A stretch of DNA of 64,000 nucleotides from an uncultured bacterium. Its GTDB lineage: Bacteria; Bacteroidota; Ignavibacteria; UBA10030; BY39. The notes below the pieces were generated by a model. That model was not told the DNA's origin and made no database searches. It worked only from the letters and a program-made list of their open reading frames with translations. The stretch spans positions 1-64,000 of the forward strand of contig CALCJK010000001.1 of NCBI GenBank assembly GCA_937967455.1, given 5' to 3'. Within the stretch, counting starts at the first letter, position 1. Each line of letters starts with the position of its first letter. Of this stretch, positions 45,554-54,138 are shown one piece after another. The translations under genes and the position numbers were made by a program.

Positions 45554-46591
45554 CTATTTTGGTTTAACTACTTGTATACCTAACCTTTTAAGTTTATATC
45601 TAAGAGTTTGTTCAGACATACCTAAAAAGTGAGCTGCTCTTGTTTGATTAAATCCAAACTTTTCAAGCGCTCTTTTGATAATACCTTTTTCAATAAGGTC
45701 AAGAGAATTTTCAAGTACAAACTCCTGATCAGTCTCAAGGTTATTTATCATCTTTACAACCTCGGTCTTTTCATCAACCAATTCTTGTGGTAATGTAAAT
45801 CTACCACCGGTCGAGAATAATACTGATCTATCTATTACAGCTTTTAATTCTCGGATATTTTCTTTCCATGTCTGCTTAACCAGTACCTCTATAGCATTTA
45901 TGTCTATTACCAATTCACCAATGCCAAGTTCTTTACAAATTTCAGAGGTATAGTGTTTTACAAGAACAGGAATATCTTCAGGGCGTTCACGCAATGGTGG
46001 AACATAAATACTTTCAAATTCAGAAAATTTATTATATAAACTCTCAAGCAACTTATGTCTTTCGAACAACTCTTTCGGTGTAGCTTTCATAGTAATTATC
46101 AACCTGACATCAACTTTTTCATCATCGGAGCTACCAAGCCTTCTAATTGTCCTCTCATTTAAGAAGGAAAGAATTTTCATCTGATTTCTAAAGCTTGCCT
46201 CTTCTATTTCTTCTATTAGAACAGTGCCCCGATTTGCTATTTCAAACAAACCGCGCTTAGTGGTAGAGGCAGAAACACCAGAAGCTCCAAATTCAAATCC
46301 GAAAAGAATAGATTCCAATTCCTTGTCGTCTATAACAGAAAGATTGAGAGAGGCAAAAGGTAAATCTTCACCAGTTTCCCTTTTACTAAGAGCGTGTATA
46401 TTCTTAGCGATTGCTCCTTTACCTACTCCAGCTTCACCAATAATAACAATATCCCTTCTTGTTTTTGCCAGGCGGGAAATTTGTTTGATAAGTTGTTCTA
46501 CTGCTTTACTTTTACCGATAATTGGATATTCCATCTTCTCAGAGTTTTTCTCCTCTTGCTGAGTCTTGGTTGTGTTGTTTTCCTGTTCCAT
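45554..46591 (-). CDS. sigma-54-activator-like AAA+ regulator lacking GAFTGA
   Basis: Transcriptional regulator related to sigma-54 enhancer-binding proteins. The 345-residue protein has no receiver or GAF domain; residues 1-25 are a charged leader. Walker A is GEAGVGKG (52-59). The segment expected to be GAFTGA reads GASGVS (102-107). Walker B is TVLIEEIE, with Glu for the usual Asp. The Arg region is NERTIRRLG, sensor II is PPLRERPEDIPVL, and the Fis-type helix-turn-helix is at the C-terminus (FNQTRAAHFLGMSEQTLRYK). Without GAFTGA it probably does not remodel sigma-54 and may act as TyrR does. Downstream of, and probably co-transcribed with, the membrane protein gene. Confidence 0.85.
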   Translation of the reverse strand: MEQENNTTKTQQEEKNSEKMEYPIIGKSKAVEQLIKQISRLAKTRRDIVIIGEAGVGKGAIAKNIHALSKRETGEDLPFASLNLSVIDDKELESILFGFEFGASGVSASTTKRGLFEIANRGTVLIEEIEEASFRNQMKILSFLNERTIRRLGSSDDEKVDVRLIITMKATPKELFERHKLLESLYNKFSEFESIYVPPLRERPEDIPVLVKHYTSEICKELGIGELVIDINAIEVLVKQTWKENIRELKAVIDRSVLFSTGGRFTLPQELVDEKTEVVKMINNLETDQEFVLENSLDLIEKGIIKRALEKFGFNQTRAAHFLGMSEQTLRYKLKRLGIQVVKPK

Positions 46592-47781: not shown

Positions 47782-47810
47782 AATATAATAATAAAAAAAT
47801 TAATTGTCAA
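47782..47810 (-). promoter_or_regulatory. sigma-70-like promoter for the membrane protein gene
   Basis: On the minus strand TTGACA (47810-47805) is followed after exactly 17 bases by TATATT (47787-47782), about 27 bases before the ATG at 47755. A perfect -35 hexamer with ideal spacing is unusual in this window. It suggests a strong promoter, though Bacteroidota primary sigma factors usually prefer other elements. Confidence 0.6.
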
Positions 47811-47948
47811 GTGTTTTCGCAATTTTTTTTGAATATCAAAAAAAAATGTGATACATATCACAATTAAAGCCAAAATTTTTTGCGAAAAACCTTTATAAAA
47901 AAATTTGCGTTTTTTTGTTATTTTTTCTAACTTTTTAGCGAAATATTT
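47811..47948. repeat. recurrent TTTTCGC / GCGAAAA motifs in a divergent intergenic region
   Basis: Four related short motifs lie around the CRP-type site: TTTTCGCAATTTTTT at 47814, TTTTTTGCGAAAAA at 47876-47889, AAATTTGCGTTTTTTT at 47901, and TTTTTAGCGAAATATTT at 47932. The first two form an inverted pair flanking the palindrome. They may be operator sites or simply A+T-rich sequence with scattered GCG. Confidence 0.4.
47847..47862. promoter_or_regulatory. CRP/FNR-family operator-like palindrome
   Basis: TGTGATACATATCACA is a perfect TGTGA-N6-TCACA, the consensus half-sites of CRP-family regulators. It lies between divergent genes: about 92 bases upstream of the membrane protein start and 123 bases upstream of the repeat-peptide start. 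Relative to the minus-strand promoter it sits near -80, an activator position. Confidence 0.65.
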
Positions 47949-47985
47949 AAAAAAATAATTATTAAATAACAAAAGGAGCTCTAAA

Positions 47986-48240
47986 ATGTTAAGAAATCTA
48001 ACAAAATCCAGAAATTTTAAGCGAGCACGCGCACTCGTCTTAACTCTTATACTTGGTTTCTCAATCAATTCAGCTATTTCCTTTGCAAGTGGTGATACTC
48101 AAAGAACTGCTGCATCTTACATTATTCCAAAGGATACTCCTAAGCCAAAAACTGCTGCATCTTACATTATTCCAAAGGATACTCCTAAGCCCAAAACTGC
48201 TGCATCTTACATTATTCCAAAGGATACTCCTAAGCCATAA
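47986..48240 (+). CDS. small exported peptide precursor with three 15-residue repeats
   Basis: Not recognised. The 84-residue product has a basic, hydrophobic signal peptide (about residues 1-35, cleavage plausible after ISFA or FAS). A short linker GDTQR follows, then three tandem copies of TAASYIIPKDTPKPK (41-55, 56-70, 71-84), the last lacking the final Lys. The repeats are identical in protein. A strong site AAAAGGAG precedes the ATG by seven bases, and a strong terminator follows, so it is a stand-alone unit. Repeated Lys-Pro-Lys ends could be processing points giving identical peptides. It could also be a cell-wall-interacting or adhesive repeat. The divergent neighbours and the following M50 protease make a signalling role worth testing. 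Confidence 0.75.
   Translation: MLRNLTKSRNFKRARALVLTLILGFSINSAISFASGDTQRTAASYIIPKDTPKPKTAASYIIPKDTPKPKTAASYIIPKDTPKP
48106..48237 (+). repeat. three tandem 45-bp repeats within the peptide gene
   Basis: Copies at 48106-48150, 48151-48195 and 48196-48237 (42 bases, then the stop). Copies 1 and 2 differ only by a silent CCA to CCC change in the last Pro codon. Near-identity in DNA as well as protein points to recent duplication or gene conversion, and copy number is likely to vary between strains. Confidence 0.95.
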
Positions 48241-48267
48241 AGAACATAAAAAGAACTTTAAACAAAG

Positions 48268-48299
48268 GGCTTTAAGTTTAATTACTTAAAGCCTTTTTT
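48268..48299 (+). terminator. Rho-independent terminator after the repeat peptide
   Basis: A perfect nine-base stem, GGCTTTAAG (48268-48276) and CTTAAAGCC (48285-48293), eight-base loop, followed by a six-T run. It separates the peptide gene from the M50 protease. Confidence 0.9.
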
Positions 48300-48349: not shown

Positions 48350-49294
48350 ATGTTTAGCTTAAAAAATTTTAATCGGTATTTGTTACATATTATACTTTTT
48401 ATATTAACATTTTTTACCACAACTTTAGCAGGTGTAATGTGGTTAAATCGAAATCCATTTGAGCTTGAAAATTTTCATTTGGGTCTTACTTATTCCTTAC
48501 CATTGCTTGCAATTTTAACTGCACATGAATTTGGACATTACTTAGCCGCAAAGTATCATAAAGTAGATGCAACCCTACCGTATTTCATTCCAATACCTCC
48601 TTTCCTTTTTAATCCATTCGGTACAATGGGTGCATTAATTAAAATTAAATCACCTATTCCTAATAAAAAGGCATTATTTGATATTGGTATTGCTGGACCA
48701 CTTGCAGGATTTGTTATAACAATAATAACACTCATTTATGGTATTATAACTCTTCCACCAATTTCATACATTTATGAAATCCATCCAGAATATATACAAT
48801 CGAATGAAATACCATCTACAGGACTTACCTTTGGTCACTCATTACTAACATATGCAATTAAAATTATTAATGGTGATTCATCCAACTTTCCACCAATGAA
48901 CGAAATATATCATTATCCTTATCTTTGTGTTGCTTGGTTTGGCCTCTTTGTAACAACATTAAATTTAATTCCCGTTGGACAATTAGATGGAGGGCACATT
49001 TTATATTCACTCATTGGTAAAAAACAAGGGATTGTTGCAAGAATATTTTTCTTTTTAATCATAGGAATTGGTCTATCCAGCTTTCTACCTTTTCCTAATT
49101 TTGGCTTTCATCCAGGTACAATAGGATGGCTCCTGTTCGCTATTCTAATTTATTTTTTTATTAAATTAGATCATCCTGATATTTACGATATATATGAATT
49201 AGACCCAATGAGAAAAATTCTGGGGTGGTTCGCTCTCCTTATTTTTATTATAGCATTCCCACCTATTCCATTCTATGAGCTTCTTCCAAAATAG
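48350..49294 (+). CDS. site-2 protease, M50 family intramembrane metalloprotease
   Basis: Zinc protease that cuts substrates inside the membrane. The 314-residue protein has about seven hydrophobic segments, the zinc motif HEFGH at 59-63 in the segment ILTAHEFGHYLAAKYHKVDA, the GTMGALIKIKSPIPNKKALF and DIGIAGPLAGF stretches, and the third ligand motif PVGQLDGGHILYSLIG (LDGGH at 212-216). No PDZ domain is seen, so it is of the plain or EGY-like type rather than RseP. Its natural substrate is unknown; the secreted repeat peptide lies immediately upstream, although a terminator separates the two. Confidence 0.92.
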   Translation: MFSLKNFNRYLLHIILFILTFFTTTLAGVMWLNRNPFELENFHLGLTYSLPLLAILTAHEFGHYLAAKYHKVDATLPYFIPIPPFLFNPFGTMGALIKIKSPIPNKKALFDIGIAGPLAGFVITIITLIYGIITLPPISYIYEIHPEYIQSNEIPSTGLTFGHSLLTYAIKIINGDSSNFPPMNEIYHYPYLCVAWFGLFVTTLNLIPVGQLDGGHILYSLIGKKQGIVARIFFFLIIGIGLSSFLPFPNFGFHPGTIGWLLFAILIYFFIKLDHPDIYDIYELDPMRKILGWFALLIFIIAFPPIPFYELLPK

Positions 49295-49393: not shown

Positions 49394-50245
49394 ATGAAAA
49401 GTTACTTCCAAAATAAAAATCTAAAATACTTACTTTCTATCATTTTTCTTTTAATTGCAGCCTGTGAAAAAAATAAACAATCACCATTTGATGTAAACAT
49501 AATTGTTCCATTTATACAAGAACTAAAAATCTCAAATTATGTAATTGACACTGATACAATTAGATATAATAATCAGTTCTCGATTGAAGATACAATTGTA
49601 ATTAATAACAGAATCACCGTTAAAGTAAATAAGAATAATATTTCACATACTAAATCTGTAATATTTTCAGTCATGAACCAAGCAGATAATGTTATAATTG
49701 AGAAAGGGGAACTTATATATAATAGAACAATTCTCGATAATGAAGTAAGCTTCGATGAATATATTGGTAGTACTAACTTTAGAATTCAAAGAAAGGTTGT
49801 TGGATTATTTTTATTAAAGGTAGTGGCAATTGATCAAAACGAAAATTATAGTAACGTACTCATCACTTCATTTGAACTCAGAAGGTCTGGTAAACCACCA
49901 ATAATTTCAAATTTAAACGCACCTGATACTGTGACACTTCCCACTTCAGGTCAAAAAGTTATTTTATTCACACTTAAAGCAGTTGATCCTAACAATGACA
50001 TAAAAGAAGTATACTTTAGGAGTTTAGATTCGTCAGATCCTAACAGAAAGTTTTTTTTATATGATAATGGCAACCTCTCACTTTATGGTGATTCAACTGC
50101 AAATGATGGCATTTATTCAATCCTTGTAGCTTTGCCTTATAATATGATAGCAAAAGCATATAGGTTCGAATTTGAAGCGAAAGACTATACTGAATTACTA
50201 AGTAATAAATTACAACACACCTTAATCGTAGTAAAATCACAATGA
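49394..50245 (+). CDS. lipoprotein with immunoglobulin-like C-terminal region
   Basis: Probable outer-membrane or surface lipoprotein of unknown role. The 283-residue product has a lipoprotein signal ending LLIAAC. Its C-terminal half (about 170-280) holds PPIISNLNAPDTVTL and SLYGDSTANDGIYSILVALP, a pattern seen in Ig-like surface modules of this lineage. It starts the run lipoprotein, propeller protein, two PorV-like proteins and thioredoxin; it overlaps the propeller gene by four bases. The 99 bases before it hold no clear element. Confidence 0.7.
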   Translation: MKSYFQNKNLKYLLSIIFLLIAACEKNKQSPFDVNIIVPFIQELKISNYVIDTDTIRYNNQFSIEDTIVINNRITVKVNKNNISHTKSVIFSVMNQADNVIIEKGELIYNRTILDNEVSFDEYIGSTNFRIQRKVVGLFLLKVVAIDQNENYSNVLITSFELRRSGKPPIISNLNAPDTVTLPTSGQKVILFTLKAVDPNNDIKEVYFRSLDSSDPNRKFFLYDNGNLSLYGDSTANDGIYSILVALPYNMIAKAYRFEFEAKDYTELLSNKLQHTLIVVKSQ

Positions 50246-51768
50246 AAATGCTTCTGATAATAACAAGCGTTATTTTTTTTAAATTAACTGGATTTTGCCA
50301 AACTCTTCATCCAAAAAACTATCACCTCGAGTTATCTAATTTAGAGGAAACCAGCATCCCAAGCAATAGCGTTTCTCAACTAAAAATTGAAATGGATAAA
50401 ATCTGGATTGGTACCAGCAATGGTTTAGCAAAGTCTGATGATAGTGGCAAAACCTGGACTGATTACTCATTTATAGCAGAATTTGCTAATCCAGGTATTT
50501 ATAGTTTAGACATTTTTCAGGATACTATTTGGACATCTACTGGTTATGTTAAAAAGAAAGATAATGAAAATATATCTACTGGAAGTGGTTATACTTATTC
50601 ATTTGATGGAGGAATTTCTTGGAAGCACATTGGTCAAACATTAGACTCAAGAGCTGATACAATTATTGAATATGGTATAAATAAAATAAAAGCCTTACCA
50701 GTAATAGTTCCTGAACAAAATGTCACATATGATTTATCAATCTCGGCTGGTAAAGTATGGATAGCCAGTTGGGCTAGTGGTCTGAGATATACAAAAATGG
50801 ATAGTATTAAATGGGTTAGAGTTATTTTACCCCCCGATAATTTATCATCTATAAAACCAACTGATACACTTAACTTTTATTTTGATCCCCGCAGAAACAA
50901 CAACTTCCTGGCATTCTCAGTGCTTGCACTTGATAATGATACAATATGGTGTGGTACAGCTGGTGGTATTAACAAATCTACTGATGGTGGAATAAGCTGG
51001 ATCAAATTCAACCATCAAAATCAGGAAAAGCCAATTTTAGGAAACTGGGTTATAACTATAAAACCACAAAGAATTGGTGATAAGCAAATTATATGGACTA
51101 CAAATTGGAAAGCAGATTCACCTGAGGAAGAGTATGGTATAAGTTACACAGCAGACGGAGGTGAAAGCTGGAATAATTTACTTAAAGGTATAAAAGCCTA
51201 TGATTTTGCATTTAAAGACTCGATTACATACATTGCAACAGAGGAAGGTTTATACAAAACTCCAGATTTTGGCAAAAATTTTTCCCGCTCAGGATTGATA
51301 GTAGATGAAGAATCCAGAAATATCATAACATCATCAGCAATTTATACCGTTGGAGTGATAGGTAATTATATCATAGTTGGTACTGCAGATGGACTTGCAA
51401 TAACAATGGATGACGAAAATACACCTTTTGGTAGTAAATGGAAGGTCTTGCGAAAATACGAAAAAATTAGAAATCAAATTAAAACTTACAATTATCCCAA
51501 TCCATTTTCTCCAAAACTTGAATATACAAGAATTCATTATAAAGTTACCGAATCAACATCCTTTGTGACAATTGAAATTTTCGATTATGGATTTAACCGT
51601 GTTAGAACTCTAATCCAGGAAGCTCAACGTTTAGGTGAATCCGAATACGATGAACTGTGGGATGGCAAAGATGATGATCGTAATGAAGTTGCAAATGGCG
51701 TTTATTTTTATAGAGTTACCATAAATAACTCTGAACCAATATGGGGTAAAATCATTGTTCTCAAATAA
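50242..51768 (+). CDS. secreted beta-propeller protein with T9SS-type C-terminal domain
   Basis: Exported protein, likely surface-attached. The 508-residue product has a signal peptide (about 1-19). It has several sortilin/BNR-like blades: IWIGTSNGLAKSDDSGKTW, YSFDGGISWKHIG, IWCGTAGGINKSTDGGISW, YTADGGESWNNL and GLYKTPDFGKNF. A C-terminal Ig-like FlgD/T9SS sorting domain begins NYPNPFSPKLEYTRIHY and ends NGVYFYRVTINN and GKIIVLK. Such domains direct secretion through the type IX system. The following PorV-like genes fit that pathway. Confidence 0.82.
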   Translation: MKMLLIITSVIFFKLTGFCQTLHPKNYHLELSNLEETSIPSNSVSQLKIEMDKIWIGTSNGLAKSDDSGKTWTDYSFIAEFANPGIYSLDIFQDTIWTSTGYVKKKDNENISTGSGYTYSFDGGISWKHIGQTLDSRADTIIEYGINKIKALPVIVPEQNVTYDLSISAGKVWIASWASGLRYTKMDSIKWVRVILPPDNLSSIKPTDTLNFYFDPRRNNNFLAFSVLALDNDTIWCGTAGGINKSTDGGISWIKFNHQNQEKPILGNWVITIKPQRIGDKQIIWTTNWKADSPEEEYGISYTADGGESWNNLLKGIKAYDFAFKDSITYIATEEGLYKTPDFGKNFSRSGLIVDEESRNIITSSAIYTVGVIGNYIIVGTADGLAITMDDENTPFGSKWKVLRKYEKIRNQIKTYNYPNPFSPKLEYTRIHYKVTESTSFVTIEIFDYGFNRVRTLIQEAQRLGESEYDELWDGKDDDRNEVANGVYFYRVTINNSEPIWGKIIVLK

Positions 51769-51778
51769 GGTATTAAAA

Positions 51779-52726
51779 ATGCTTATCCGATATAAATATA
51801 TAGTATTCATACTTTTATTGACAAATAGCTTATCAGCACAAATTGGGGGAAAACCAGGAGCATTTTCAAGATTAGGTTTTGGTGCAAGAGGCATTGCAAT
51901 GGGAAATGCAATGTCTGCAGTCGTATCACGAGACATTTCAGCTTATTACAATCCTGCTTTGATACCTTATATAGAATATAAAACAGTTAACATAACCTAT
52001 TCTTTTTTATCTCTTGATAGATATTTAAATTTTCTGAGTTATGGACAGGCAATCAAGCCAAGTGCTGGCGTTTCATTAGGATTGATAAACTCAGGTGTTC
52101 GGAATATTGAAGAAAGAGATTCCGATGGCAATTTTTTGAGAAATCTAAATACTTCAGAAAATTTATTTTTTCTCTCATTCGGTAATCAAATTCACAGAAA
52201 TGTATCAATAGGTATCACATTTAAATTATTTTACCACAAACTATATGAAGGAATTACTTCAACAACTGTTGGATTTGATTTGGGTATATTAGCAAAACTT
52301 ACATCAACATCAACTTTAGGATTGGTAGTAAAAGATATAAATTCAAAATATCAGTGGAATACAACATCAATTTATGGTAGAGCTGGTACTGCTACAACAG
52401 ATCAATTCCCAAGATTATTAATAATATCCTTCTCCTATGCACTACCATATGAATTAGGATTAGCTTCTATTGAATTTGAAAATTCTACAGCGAAAACAAA
52501 TCAAATTAGATTAGGAACAGAACTTTTACTACATAATAATTTCACTTTAAGAGCTGGACTGGATAGAATTGTGTACAGCAATAATTATTCAGGTATTAAA
52601 CCCACATTCGGTTATTCACTTAATTTTAATTTGAATAAAATTTCAACATCACTGGATTATGCATATGTAATTGAACCTTTCTCACCTGGTAATATTCATA
52701 TAATAACACTAACTTTTAAATTTTAA
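51779..52726 (+). CDS. PorV/PorQ family outer-membrane protein
   Basis: Beta-barrel protein related to the type IX secretion factors PorV and PorQ. The 315-residue product has a signal peptide (ending near SLSAQ) and the family N-terminus FSRLGFGARGIAMGNAMSAV and SAYYNPALIPYIE. It ends in an aromatic strand, IHIITLTFKF. I chose the ATG at 51779, with AAGG eight bases upstream; a TTG at 51755 within the previous gene is unlikely. Whether it is a true sortase-shuttle PorV or only a family member is open. Confidence 0.8.
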   Translation: MLIRYKYIVFILLLTNSLSAQIGGKPGAFSRLGFGARGIAMGNAMSAVVSRDISAYYNPALIPYIEYKTVNITYSFLSLDRYLNFLSYGQAIKPSAGVSLGLINSGVRNIEERDSDGNFLRNLNTSENLFFLSFGNQIHRNVSIGITFKLFYHKLYEGITSTTVGFDLGILAKLTSTSTLGLVVKDINSKYQWNTTSIYGRAGTATTDQFPRLLIISFSYALPYELGLASIEFENSTAKTNQIRLGTELLLHNNFTLRAGLDRIVYSNNYSGIKPTFGYSLNFNLNKISTSLDYAYVIEPFSPGNIHIITLTFKF

Positions 52727-52728
52727 TT

Positions 52729-53631
52729 ATGAAAACTAAATTCAATAAATACATTTTGAGTATATTAATTACAATACTTCCACTTCAATCTATAAATGCG
52801 ATTACATCAGGATTTTCTTTTTTAAAAACAGGTATAAGTCCACGTGCAATTAGTATGGGTGAGTCGTATTCGATGAATAGATTTGAACCTTCATCAACCT
52901 TTTACAATCCGGCATTTCTTGGACTATCCTCAAAATTGGAATTGCAGTTCATACACAAAGAGTGGTTTAAAGATTCCAGAATTGAATATTTAGGATTCGC
53001 AACACAAATAAACAAAATAAGATTTAGTATTGGAATAAATTCCTTTTCCATTCAAAACATTGAATTAAGAACTATTCCTGGACCTCCTGAGGGCACATTT
53101 ACAGCAAGAAACTTGGCACTATCATTTTCAAGCGCTTACAAATTCAAAGATGTAACTATAGGGTTAACAACCAAATTATTATACGAAAAGATTTATATTT
53201 ATGAAGCATCAGGTTTCGCTTTCGATCTCGGTGCTCTATATTCTTACTCAGATTATTTAAATGCAAACATTTCGATTAATAATATAGGGAAAATGAATCC
53301 TCTCTTAAATCAATCTAGCAAATTACCTATTAACTTAAGATTTGGAATCTCTTCATATTATGAATTAGGTGAAACAAAGTTTAGAATATATCCCGCACTT
53401 CAGCTTTTAACAATATTTGATGAAAAGAAAAATCATATTCAAACAGGTTTAGAAATTGATTATGATAATTTGATAAGTTTTAGAATTGGAGTTCAATCTG
53501 GTTATTCTACACATAACATTTCAACAGGATTTGGTATTAACTATAAAGCATTTACTTTTGATTTTGCATATATGCCACTCAAGTATAGCTTAGGTAACTC
53601 ACTCTCATTTTCAACAAAAATAGCATTTTAA
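52729..53631 (+). CDS. second PorV/PorQ-like outer-membrane protein
   Basis: Paralogous beta-barrel protein. The 300-residue product has a signal peptide ending near INAI, the family start FSFLKTGISPRAISMGESYS and STFYNPAFLGLSSKLELQFI, and a final strand SLSFSTKIAF. It follows the first copy by two bases. The two differ strongly in sequence, so duplication is old. Role probably export or anchoring of surface proteins such as the propeller protein (inference). Confidence 0.75.
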   Translation: MKTKFNKYILSILITILPLQSINAITSGFSFLKTGISPRAISMGESYSMNRFEPSSTFYNPAFLGLSSKLELQFIHKEWFKDSRIEYLGFATQINKIRFSIGINSFSIQNIELRTIPGPPEGTFTARNLALSFSSAYKFKDVTIGLTTKLLYEKIYIYEASGFAFDLGALYSYSDYLNANISINNIGKMNPLLNQSSKLPINLRFGISSYYELGETKFRIYPALQLLTIFDEKKNHIQTGLEIDYDNLISFRIGVQSGYSTHNISTGFGINYKAFTFDFAYMPLKYSLGNSLSFSTKIAF

Positions 53632-53637
53632 ATAAAT

Positions 53638-54138
53638 ATGAGAAAAGATTTAACCAGTTTAGTAATTGCAATAATAATTGTTACATTAGTAATATATGCA
53701 TATTATCCTTTTAATGAATCAAAAATTAAGTGGTATGATTTTAACAACGGTTTAGAAATCGCGAAAGCAGAAAATAAAAAAATTTTAATAAACGTTTATG
53801 CAGATTGGTGCAAATGGTGTAAAAAATTGGAAAATGAAGTTTTCCCTGATCCTGAAGTTATGGAATATATGCTTAAAAGATTCATATCAATAAAATTTAA
53901 TGGTGAAGATAAAAATAAAATAAATTATATGGGACAAATTTATTTACACTCTGAATTTGTAGAGGCATTTGGAATAAATGGATTTCCTGCAACAATTTTT
54001 ATGACATCTGAGGCAGAACCAATTACTGTTTTACCAGGTTACCTTAATGCAAAAGAATATCTTCTCGTTTTAAAGTTTATTGGAGAAGATCTATATTTAA
54101 AAATGACATATGACGAGTATCTAAATTCTCTAAAATAA
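53638..54138 (+). CDS. membrane-anchored thioredoxin-like protein
   Basis: Probable periplasmic thiol oxidoreductase. The 166-residue protein has an N-terminal membrane anchor (about 7-25) and a thioredoxin-like domain with NVYADWCKWCKKLENEVF (active site CKWC) and the cis-Pro loop INGFPATIFM. It resembles the thioredoxin_7/DUF255-like group. It closes the surface-protein run and may serve disulfide formation in exported proteins. Confidence 0.85.
   Translation: MRKDLTSLVIAIIIVTLVIYAYYPFNESKIKWYDFNNGLEIAKAENKKILINVYADWCKWCKKLENEVFPDPEVMEYMLKRFISIKFNGEDKNKINYMGQIYLHSEFVEAFGINGFPATIFMTSEAEPITVLPGYLNAKEYLLVLKFIGEDLYLKMTYDEYLNSLK

Follow-up and report, generated by a model that had tools for sequence, protein, structure and literature searches.

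A candidate multi-copy peptide signal linked to an eight-helix membrane protein and an AAA+/Fis regulator in uncultured Ignavibacteria

Peptide pheromones have been well worked out in Gram-positive bacteria, where those of the enterococci are processed by the M50 protease Eep. To our knowledge, no comparable processed-peptide system has been described in this part of the Bacteroidota tree. Propeptides of the Phr/RRNPPA systems in Bacillota carry up to 6-8 identical pheromone copies (PMC9765709, PMC11343458), which makes multi-copy precursors less rare in bacteria than the preliminary description of the present locus had held. Multi-copy pheromone genes are also known in fungi (PMC6339444, PMC5850478). 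Here, we analyzed a gene of this general type in a window of 64,000 nucleotides (i.e. the whole stretch of DNA examined) together with its neighbors, a membrane protein (C3) and a regulator (REG). The literature searched contained no bacterial system of this type outside Bacillota.

The open reading frame of 84 aa was confirmed at exactly 47986-48240 on the forward strand. Its leader (residues 1-34, 47986..48087), supported by the leader profile of the homologs, consists of a KR-rich start and a hydrophobic stretch with conserved N28 and S32, and is predicted to be cut after AISFA. The complete layout is MLRNLTKSRNFKRARALVLTLILGFSINSAISFASGDTQR followed by TAASYIIPKDTPKP-K-TAASYIIPKDTPKP-K-TAASYIIPKDTPKP and the stop codon. 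Core 1 (48106..48147) is preceded by Arg40, cores 2 (48151..48192) and 3 (48196..48237) by single-lysine spacers (48148..48150 and 48193..48195), and the stop codon follows core 3 immediately. At the DNA level, the cores form a period-45 array (48100-48241, 3.1 copies, 95% match; TRF), the sole such array in the 64 kb. The three copies differ at one core base (CCA/CCC), giving two pairwise codon differences, both synonymous. From this genome alone, the identity of the copies could be explained by recent duplication; it is the relatives that decide. A ribosome binding site, AAGGAG (47973..47978, forward strand), lies 7 nt upstream of the ATG, and GGAG-type sites precede most homologs. Downstream, on the same strand, an intrinsic terminator (48264..48297) is formed by a perfect 14-bp stem and a T run, with a stability of -17.2 kcal/mol (z = -5.55) that was reached by none of 200 shuffles. 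The three tandem, nearly identical units of the preliminary description are borne out by the reading frame, the TRF array, and the codon comparison, and the strong ribosome binding site and the gene's own terminator are both real. Its 15-residue repeat stands as to the three copies; the third lacks the final K, however, and the array is better described as a 14-residue core separated by K. Neither the precursor nor C3 had a Pfam, NCBIfam, or PADLOC family above the cut-off, in agreement with the earlier remark that no known family was recognizable, and the phage collection searched gave no match to the precursor.

Homologs were found well beyond the genus in a search of 60 relatives. Matches to the leader profile occurred in 40 of the 98 genomes of the order (E <= 8e-10, the next best being 5e-3), all members of the family coming from uncultured MAGs. 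With this profile, homologs scored 34-60 bits, compared with a background of at most 8.1 bits for the fetched loci and at most 19 bits genome-wide. A family of this breadth makes a chance origin of the repeat impossible. The leader is constant across species (..KR.RS...T....ATN.AIS.A); the repeated unit is species-specific and near-identical within a species. Cores number 1-9 per precursor and are 11-14 residues long, proline-rich, and mostly end in PRP, PKP, or PPP. Examples are SGVPVIPDSPRP, SGIALNPSGTPRP, SGVAHMPDSPRP, AGVGVLSGNTPRP, and STVPLLPDSPRP (four copies each), SGTPNNPDSPRP and AGIPTLPDSPRP (three copies each), LASGTTSNPLPPPP (seven copies), and SGGPIAPSDIPRP (nine copies). The mature precursor measures ~30-200 residues in total, and there is usually one precursor per genome, at a conserved and fixed chromosomal locus. 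In an outgroup genus belonging to another order of the same class, C3 is present, three members have a precursor with a single core (..YA-SGNTMLPDSPHP-RD..), and REG was seen beside C3 and the single-core precursor in one member. The ancestral unit was therefore probably one core, repeated only later.

Two species have two precursor genes side by side. In one (L068; 36-323 and 351-629), both genes encode the same core, and in the other (L057; 9121-9369 and 9401-9640), the second gene has drifted cores (SGPTAPPPPIP) plus one original core. A contig labeled Candidatus Nomurabacteria (L053) also carries a complete C3-precursor locus of Ignavibacteria type and is probably mis-binned.

Comparison of the core copies within each of 43 distinct precursors gave 1148 synonymous versus 37 non-synonymous codon differences, while 27% of random single-base changes in the precursor genes are expected to be synonymous; these counts are pairwise and not independent, which is of no consequence given the size of the contrast. 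The synonymous excess means that selection acts on the peptide and that the copies are not merely young: each core copy is kept to the same peptide by selection. Repeat number was found to vary among related genomes, as the preliminary description had proposed to check, with four versus two copies of the same core SGVMNIPDPPRP at 96% C3 identity. When the core changes, the change spreads to all copies (STIPLL in four copies versus STVPLL in three at 95% C3 identity). Spacers of 1-9 residues vary in length and sequence inside one gene (e.g. TR, TLVDSR, and TRVRNLTAR, or RT and IVSERA) around an unchanged core. Variation in copy number, a fixed core, and free spacers are the signature of a multi-copy released peptide and not of a folded repeat protein. 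The central idea of the preliminary description, that the precursor yields several identical peptides by cutting, is thus strongly supported by conserved synteny, variable repeat number, cores identical in protein and different in DNA, and variable spacer length, the cutting itself being predicted from sequence.

The start of the core is set by two independent marks. Lys or Arg precedes the core in 107 of 151 cases, and the first core of several species lies directly on an AxA-type signal-peptidase site (ISYA/SGMPII, ISFA/STIPLL, and IAFA/SGVPVG, with the slash marking the site). The end of the core is marked by a stop codon immediately after it in 33 of the 43 precursors. Pro follows 135 of 146 core-internal Lys or Arg residues versus none of 97 in spacers, an arrangement that would keep a trypsin-like protease from cutting inside the core. 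The K/R rule has exceptions: in some species, cores are preceded by T, A, D, or F, and the window core TAASYIIPKDTPKP has an exposed K-D bond inside. Lys-Pro-Lys junctions, suggested earlier as processing points, are an improbable cutting unit: cores end in KP or RP, and the cut probably falls at the single Lys or Arg that precedes the following core.

In the first set of loci examined, the precursor typically lay between the divergent C3 gene and a downstream M50 protease gene. To tell functional from positional links, precursor, C3, REG, and M50 were searched separately in all 98 genomes. Precursor and C3 occurred together in 40 genomes, the precursor alone in none, C3 alone in five, and neither in 53 (p = 2.5e-22). 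The corresponding numbers for precursor and REG were 39, 1, 7, and 51 (p = 6e-19), and C3 and REG were associated with p = 1e-21; the exceptions that we inspected were mostly contig ends or distant paralogs. Across the order, the homologs almost always adjoin C3 and REG, a synteny whose absence would, according to the preliminary description, have spoken against it. One genome of the same family has a REG ortholog at a contig end (L240; G002:C127) and neither C3 nor precursor was found there, reflecting either an assembly gap or loss.

The M50 gene of the window (48350..49294, forward strand) encodes, by family match, a site-2-type intramembrane protease. Although it is the usual downstream neighbor, genome counts show it to be common also without the module: it is present in 74 of the 98 genomes and weakly associated with the precursor. 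M50 was dropped as a dedicated processing enzyme, being found in 36 genomes without precursor and having moved away in some with it; the module has no dedicated protease tied to it. After M50, a conserved run (49394-54138), with identical gene order in many relatives, encodes an exported protein with a lipoprotein-like signal start, a BNR-repeat protein with a FlgD/T9SS-type sorting tail, two paralogous outer-membrane-type proteins, and a thioredoxin-like protein.

The C3 paralogs that were fetched adjoin a REG paralog, with two exceptions: one lies at a contig end, and no REG was seen beside another (L125). C3 and REG thus go together as a pair. In four of these paralog pairs, the precursor position is occupied by another small exported ORF, divergently oriented and proline-rich in its tail, possibly a second ligand class for the receptor family; if true, this would point to a wider family of receptors and regulators with exported peptides of their own. 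These unrelated ORFs are located at L130:3468-3728 (with a second ORF nearby), in L133 (upstream of 5871), at L134:333-647, and at L135:7345-7656. Their tails read ..PPPPPPPQPVK, ..PPPPPPPPPTY, ..PPPPPPPPIK, and ..PPPPDSLR.

The AlphaFold2 model of C3 (46616..47755, reverse strand; 379 aa), built from 17 sequences, is confident (pLDDT 84, pTM 0.84) and shows eight membrane helices plus a small domain on the outside. Positive-inside reasoning places both ends of the modeled protein inside. The outer domain comprises 75 residues (approx. residues 152-226), and the cytosolic loops and tail are conserved. The inner loops hardly vary (entropy 0.34 for YFGYQYxKDPPQGAYIDK), in contrast to the outer loops (1.6-2.6), as expected of a receptor whose intracellular partner stays constant while its external ligand changes. 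Partial Mantel tests, in which the REG distance was removed and phylogeny was only partly corrected for, showed modest correlations of core distance with the outer part (r 0.24, p 0.0075) and the membrane part (r 0.29, p 0.0005) of C3, and no correlation with the inner part (r 0.13, p 0.13). From linkage and the conservation pattern, we propose C3 as the peptide receptor. A sample of 297 genomes from the whole phylum contained no C3 beyond the order. Within the class, it also occurs in one genus of another order. A sequence-profile search of C3 against PDB gave only insignificant matches of the outer domain to Internalin (E at least 0.03). Homology of C3 to GPCRs was considered and rejected: GPCRs were the top PDB matches in Foldseek, but with E of at least 0.14, TM about 0.3, and rmsd above 10 Å.

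REG (45554..46591, reverse strand; 345 aa) has, by domain matches, an AAA+ domain (Sigma54_activat) and a Fis-type HTH (HTH_8) without a receiver domain, and is proposed as the output of C3. The GAFTGA motif is absent; its position reads GASGVSASTTKRG, and relatives have G-x-x-G-x-P-Y-T-T-K-R-G. Despite the presence of rpoN in the genome, REG therefore probably does not act through sigma54, and no match to a classical sigma54 promoter was found near the precursor. The divergent C3-REG operon has a sigma70-like promoter of conserved sequence, TTGACA-N17-TATATT (47782..47810, reverse strand). A perfectly spaced dyad of CRP/FNR-type consensus, TGTGA-N6-TCACA (47847..47862), lies upstream of the precursor at position -139. 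Dyads of a related form, GTGA-N6-CAC, occur upstream of most precursors of families f1 and f2, with CGTGAAAATTTTTCACG in several relatives, together with a Bacteroidota-type TTG..TAnnTTTG pattern. These upstream dyads are candidate sites for control by REG or a CRP-type regulator. In family f6 (upstream regions of L030, L105, L064, and L069), the C3 promoter has a TTCGT-N8-ACGAA dyad overlapping its -10 region, a candidate autoregulatory site.

On this evidence, we consider it probable that the precursor is a processed, multi-copy secreted peptide signal with C3 as its receptor and REG as its regulator, representing an undescribed signaling family. The Sec signal sequence would carry the precursor across the inner membrane, and a K/R-directed protease, joined in several species by signal peptidase itself, would cut before each core. 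After trimming of the leftover Lys or Arg, three copies of about TAASYIIPKDTPKP would be released and sensed from outside by the divergently encoded C3. Via its conserved inner face, C3 would act on the adjacent REG, with which it is probably co-transcribed, and thereby change transcription. Core and receptor would diverge together between species, giving private signals, and each transcript would yield more peptide through the repeats, as for yeast alpha-factor. Whether this also amounts to a new class of Gram-negative peptide signaling, with an alpha-factor-like precursor, an eight-helix receptor that belongs to no known family, and an AAA+/Fis regulator that the receptor drives directly, with no kinase involved, is in our judgment evenly balanced.

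The same linkage of precursor, C3, and REG would be seen if the processed peptide acted within a single cell, reporting secretion, protease activity, and the periplasmic state to that cell's own C3-REG as a sensor of envelope stress and not as a cell-cell signal. The neighboring M50 protease is of the type used in envelope-stress signaling, the downstream genes are envelope and secretion genes, and the CRP/FNR-like dyad suggests physiological control. A sensor of this kind, however, needs neither species-specific, diverging cores that co-vary with C3's outer part nor several exact copies maintained by selection, and we regard it as improbable.

Somewhat less probable still is that the cores are proline-rich bacteriocins, with C3-REG serving in immunity or in the control of production. 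PRP motifs, a length of 11-14 residues, and a multi-copy precursor are shared with insect PrAMPs (PMC11549390), and the sequences of the cores diversify between species. By direct count, however, the cores have a net charge of about zero (0 for SGVPVIPDSPRP, +1 for the window core), whereas PrAMPs are strongly cationic. The locus is conserved and fixed on the chromosome with usually one precursor per genome, and the almost invariant inner face of C3 fits a signaling contact rather than immunity.

A structural or adhesive envelope protein whose uncut repeats bind the wall, the outer membrane, or surfaces, the main alternative of the preliminary description, would also be exported, proline-rich, and repeated, but is very unlikely given a mature length of only about 30-200 residues, spacers of 1-9 residues beside fixed cores, single-core members, strict linkage to a regulator pair, and K/R-P shielding in the core.

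If the locus does encode a peptide signal, it would provide a complete testable trio of ligand, receptor, and regulator in a large uncultured lineage, and about 40 ligand-receptor pairs, a natural library recording the divergence of private signals. Since the ligand can be read from the gene, synthetic peptides of 12-14 residues are directly testable. The multi-copy pheromone gene would then have originated independently in fungi, in Bacillota, and here.

Among described systems, Rap-Phr/RRNPPA shares with the present one a propeptide with a signal sequence, multiple identical pheromones, an adjacent cognate receptor, and a pheromone that is conserved while the rest varies (PMC11343458, PMC9765709); several identical units are likewise found in the window propeptide, which would be secreted. 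RRNPPA pheromones of Gram-positives, in contrast, are taken up again by the cell and bind TPR receptors in the cytoplasm. The present cores, with 11-14 aa, are longer, the neighbors are an eight-helix membrane protein and an AAA+/Fis regulator, no TPR family is among the Pfam matches of the window neighbors (M50, C3, and REG), and the hosts are Ignavibacteria-like members of the phylum Bacteroidota. The enterococcal Eep system resembles this one in having a small exported peptide and an M50 protease nearby, but here M50 is not tied to the module and the pheromone is not inside the signal sequence. Regulators of the PspF/NtrC type (bEBPs) and of the RtcR type share with REG the Sigma54_activat AAA+ and HTH_8 domains without receiver, in a PspF-like layout; REG differs in the absence of GAFTGA and in its one-to-one pairing with C3. 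The pre-pro-polyproteins of insect apidaecins are also multi-copy precursors of proline-rich cores with PRP (PMC11549390). That motif is found here as well, but the strong positive charge of PrAMPs is not (cores about net 0 to +1), and the present cores are linked to a regulator and a membrane protein at a fixed, order-wide locus. Fungal Kex2-processed repeats, among them the alpha-factor gene MF-alpha1, have a signal sequence, identical short units, basic residues, and variable spacers and repeat number (PMC6339444, PMC7329392, PMC5850478), and near-identical short repeats after a signal sequence, in variable number, are equally what we found; the multi-helix membrane receptor of alpha-factor has its counterpart in the one proposed here. 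Unlike the KR, RR, or KK cut sites of the fungal repeats (PMC6339444), a single K/R or none precedes the bacterial cores, and there is no sequence homology. The multi-copy pheromone gene is thus of a known kind; what is new, to judge from our searches, are its partners, the receptor family, and the lineage.
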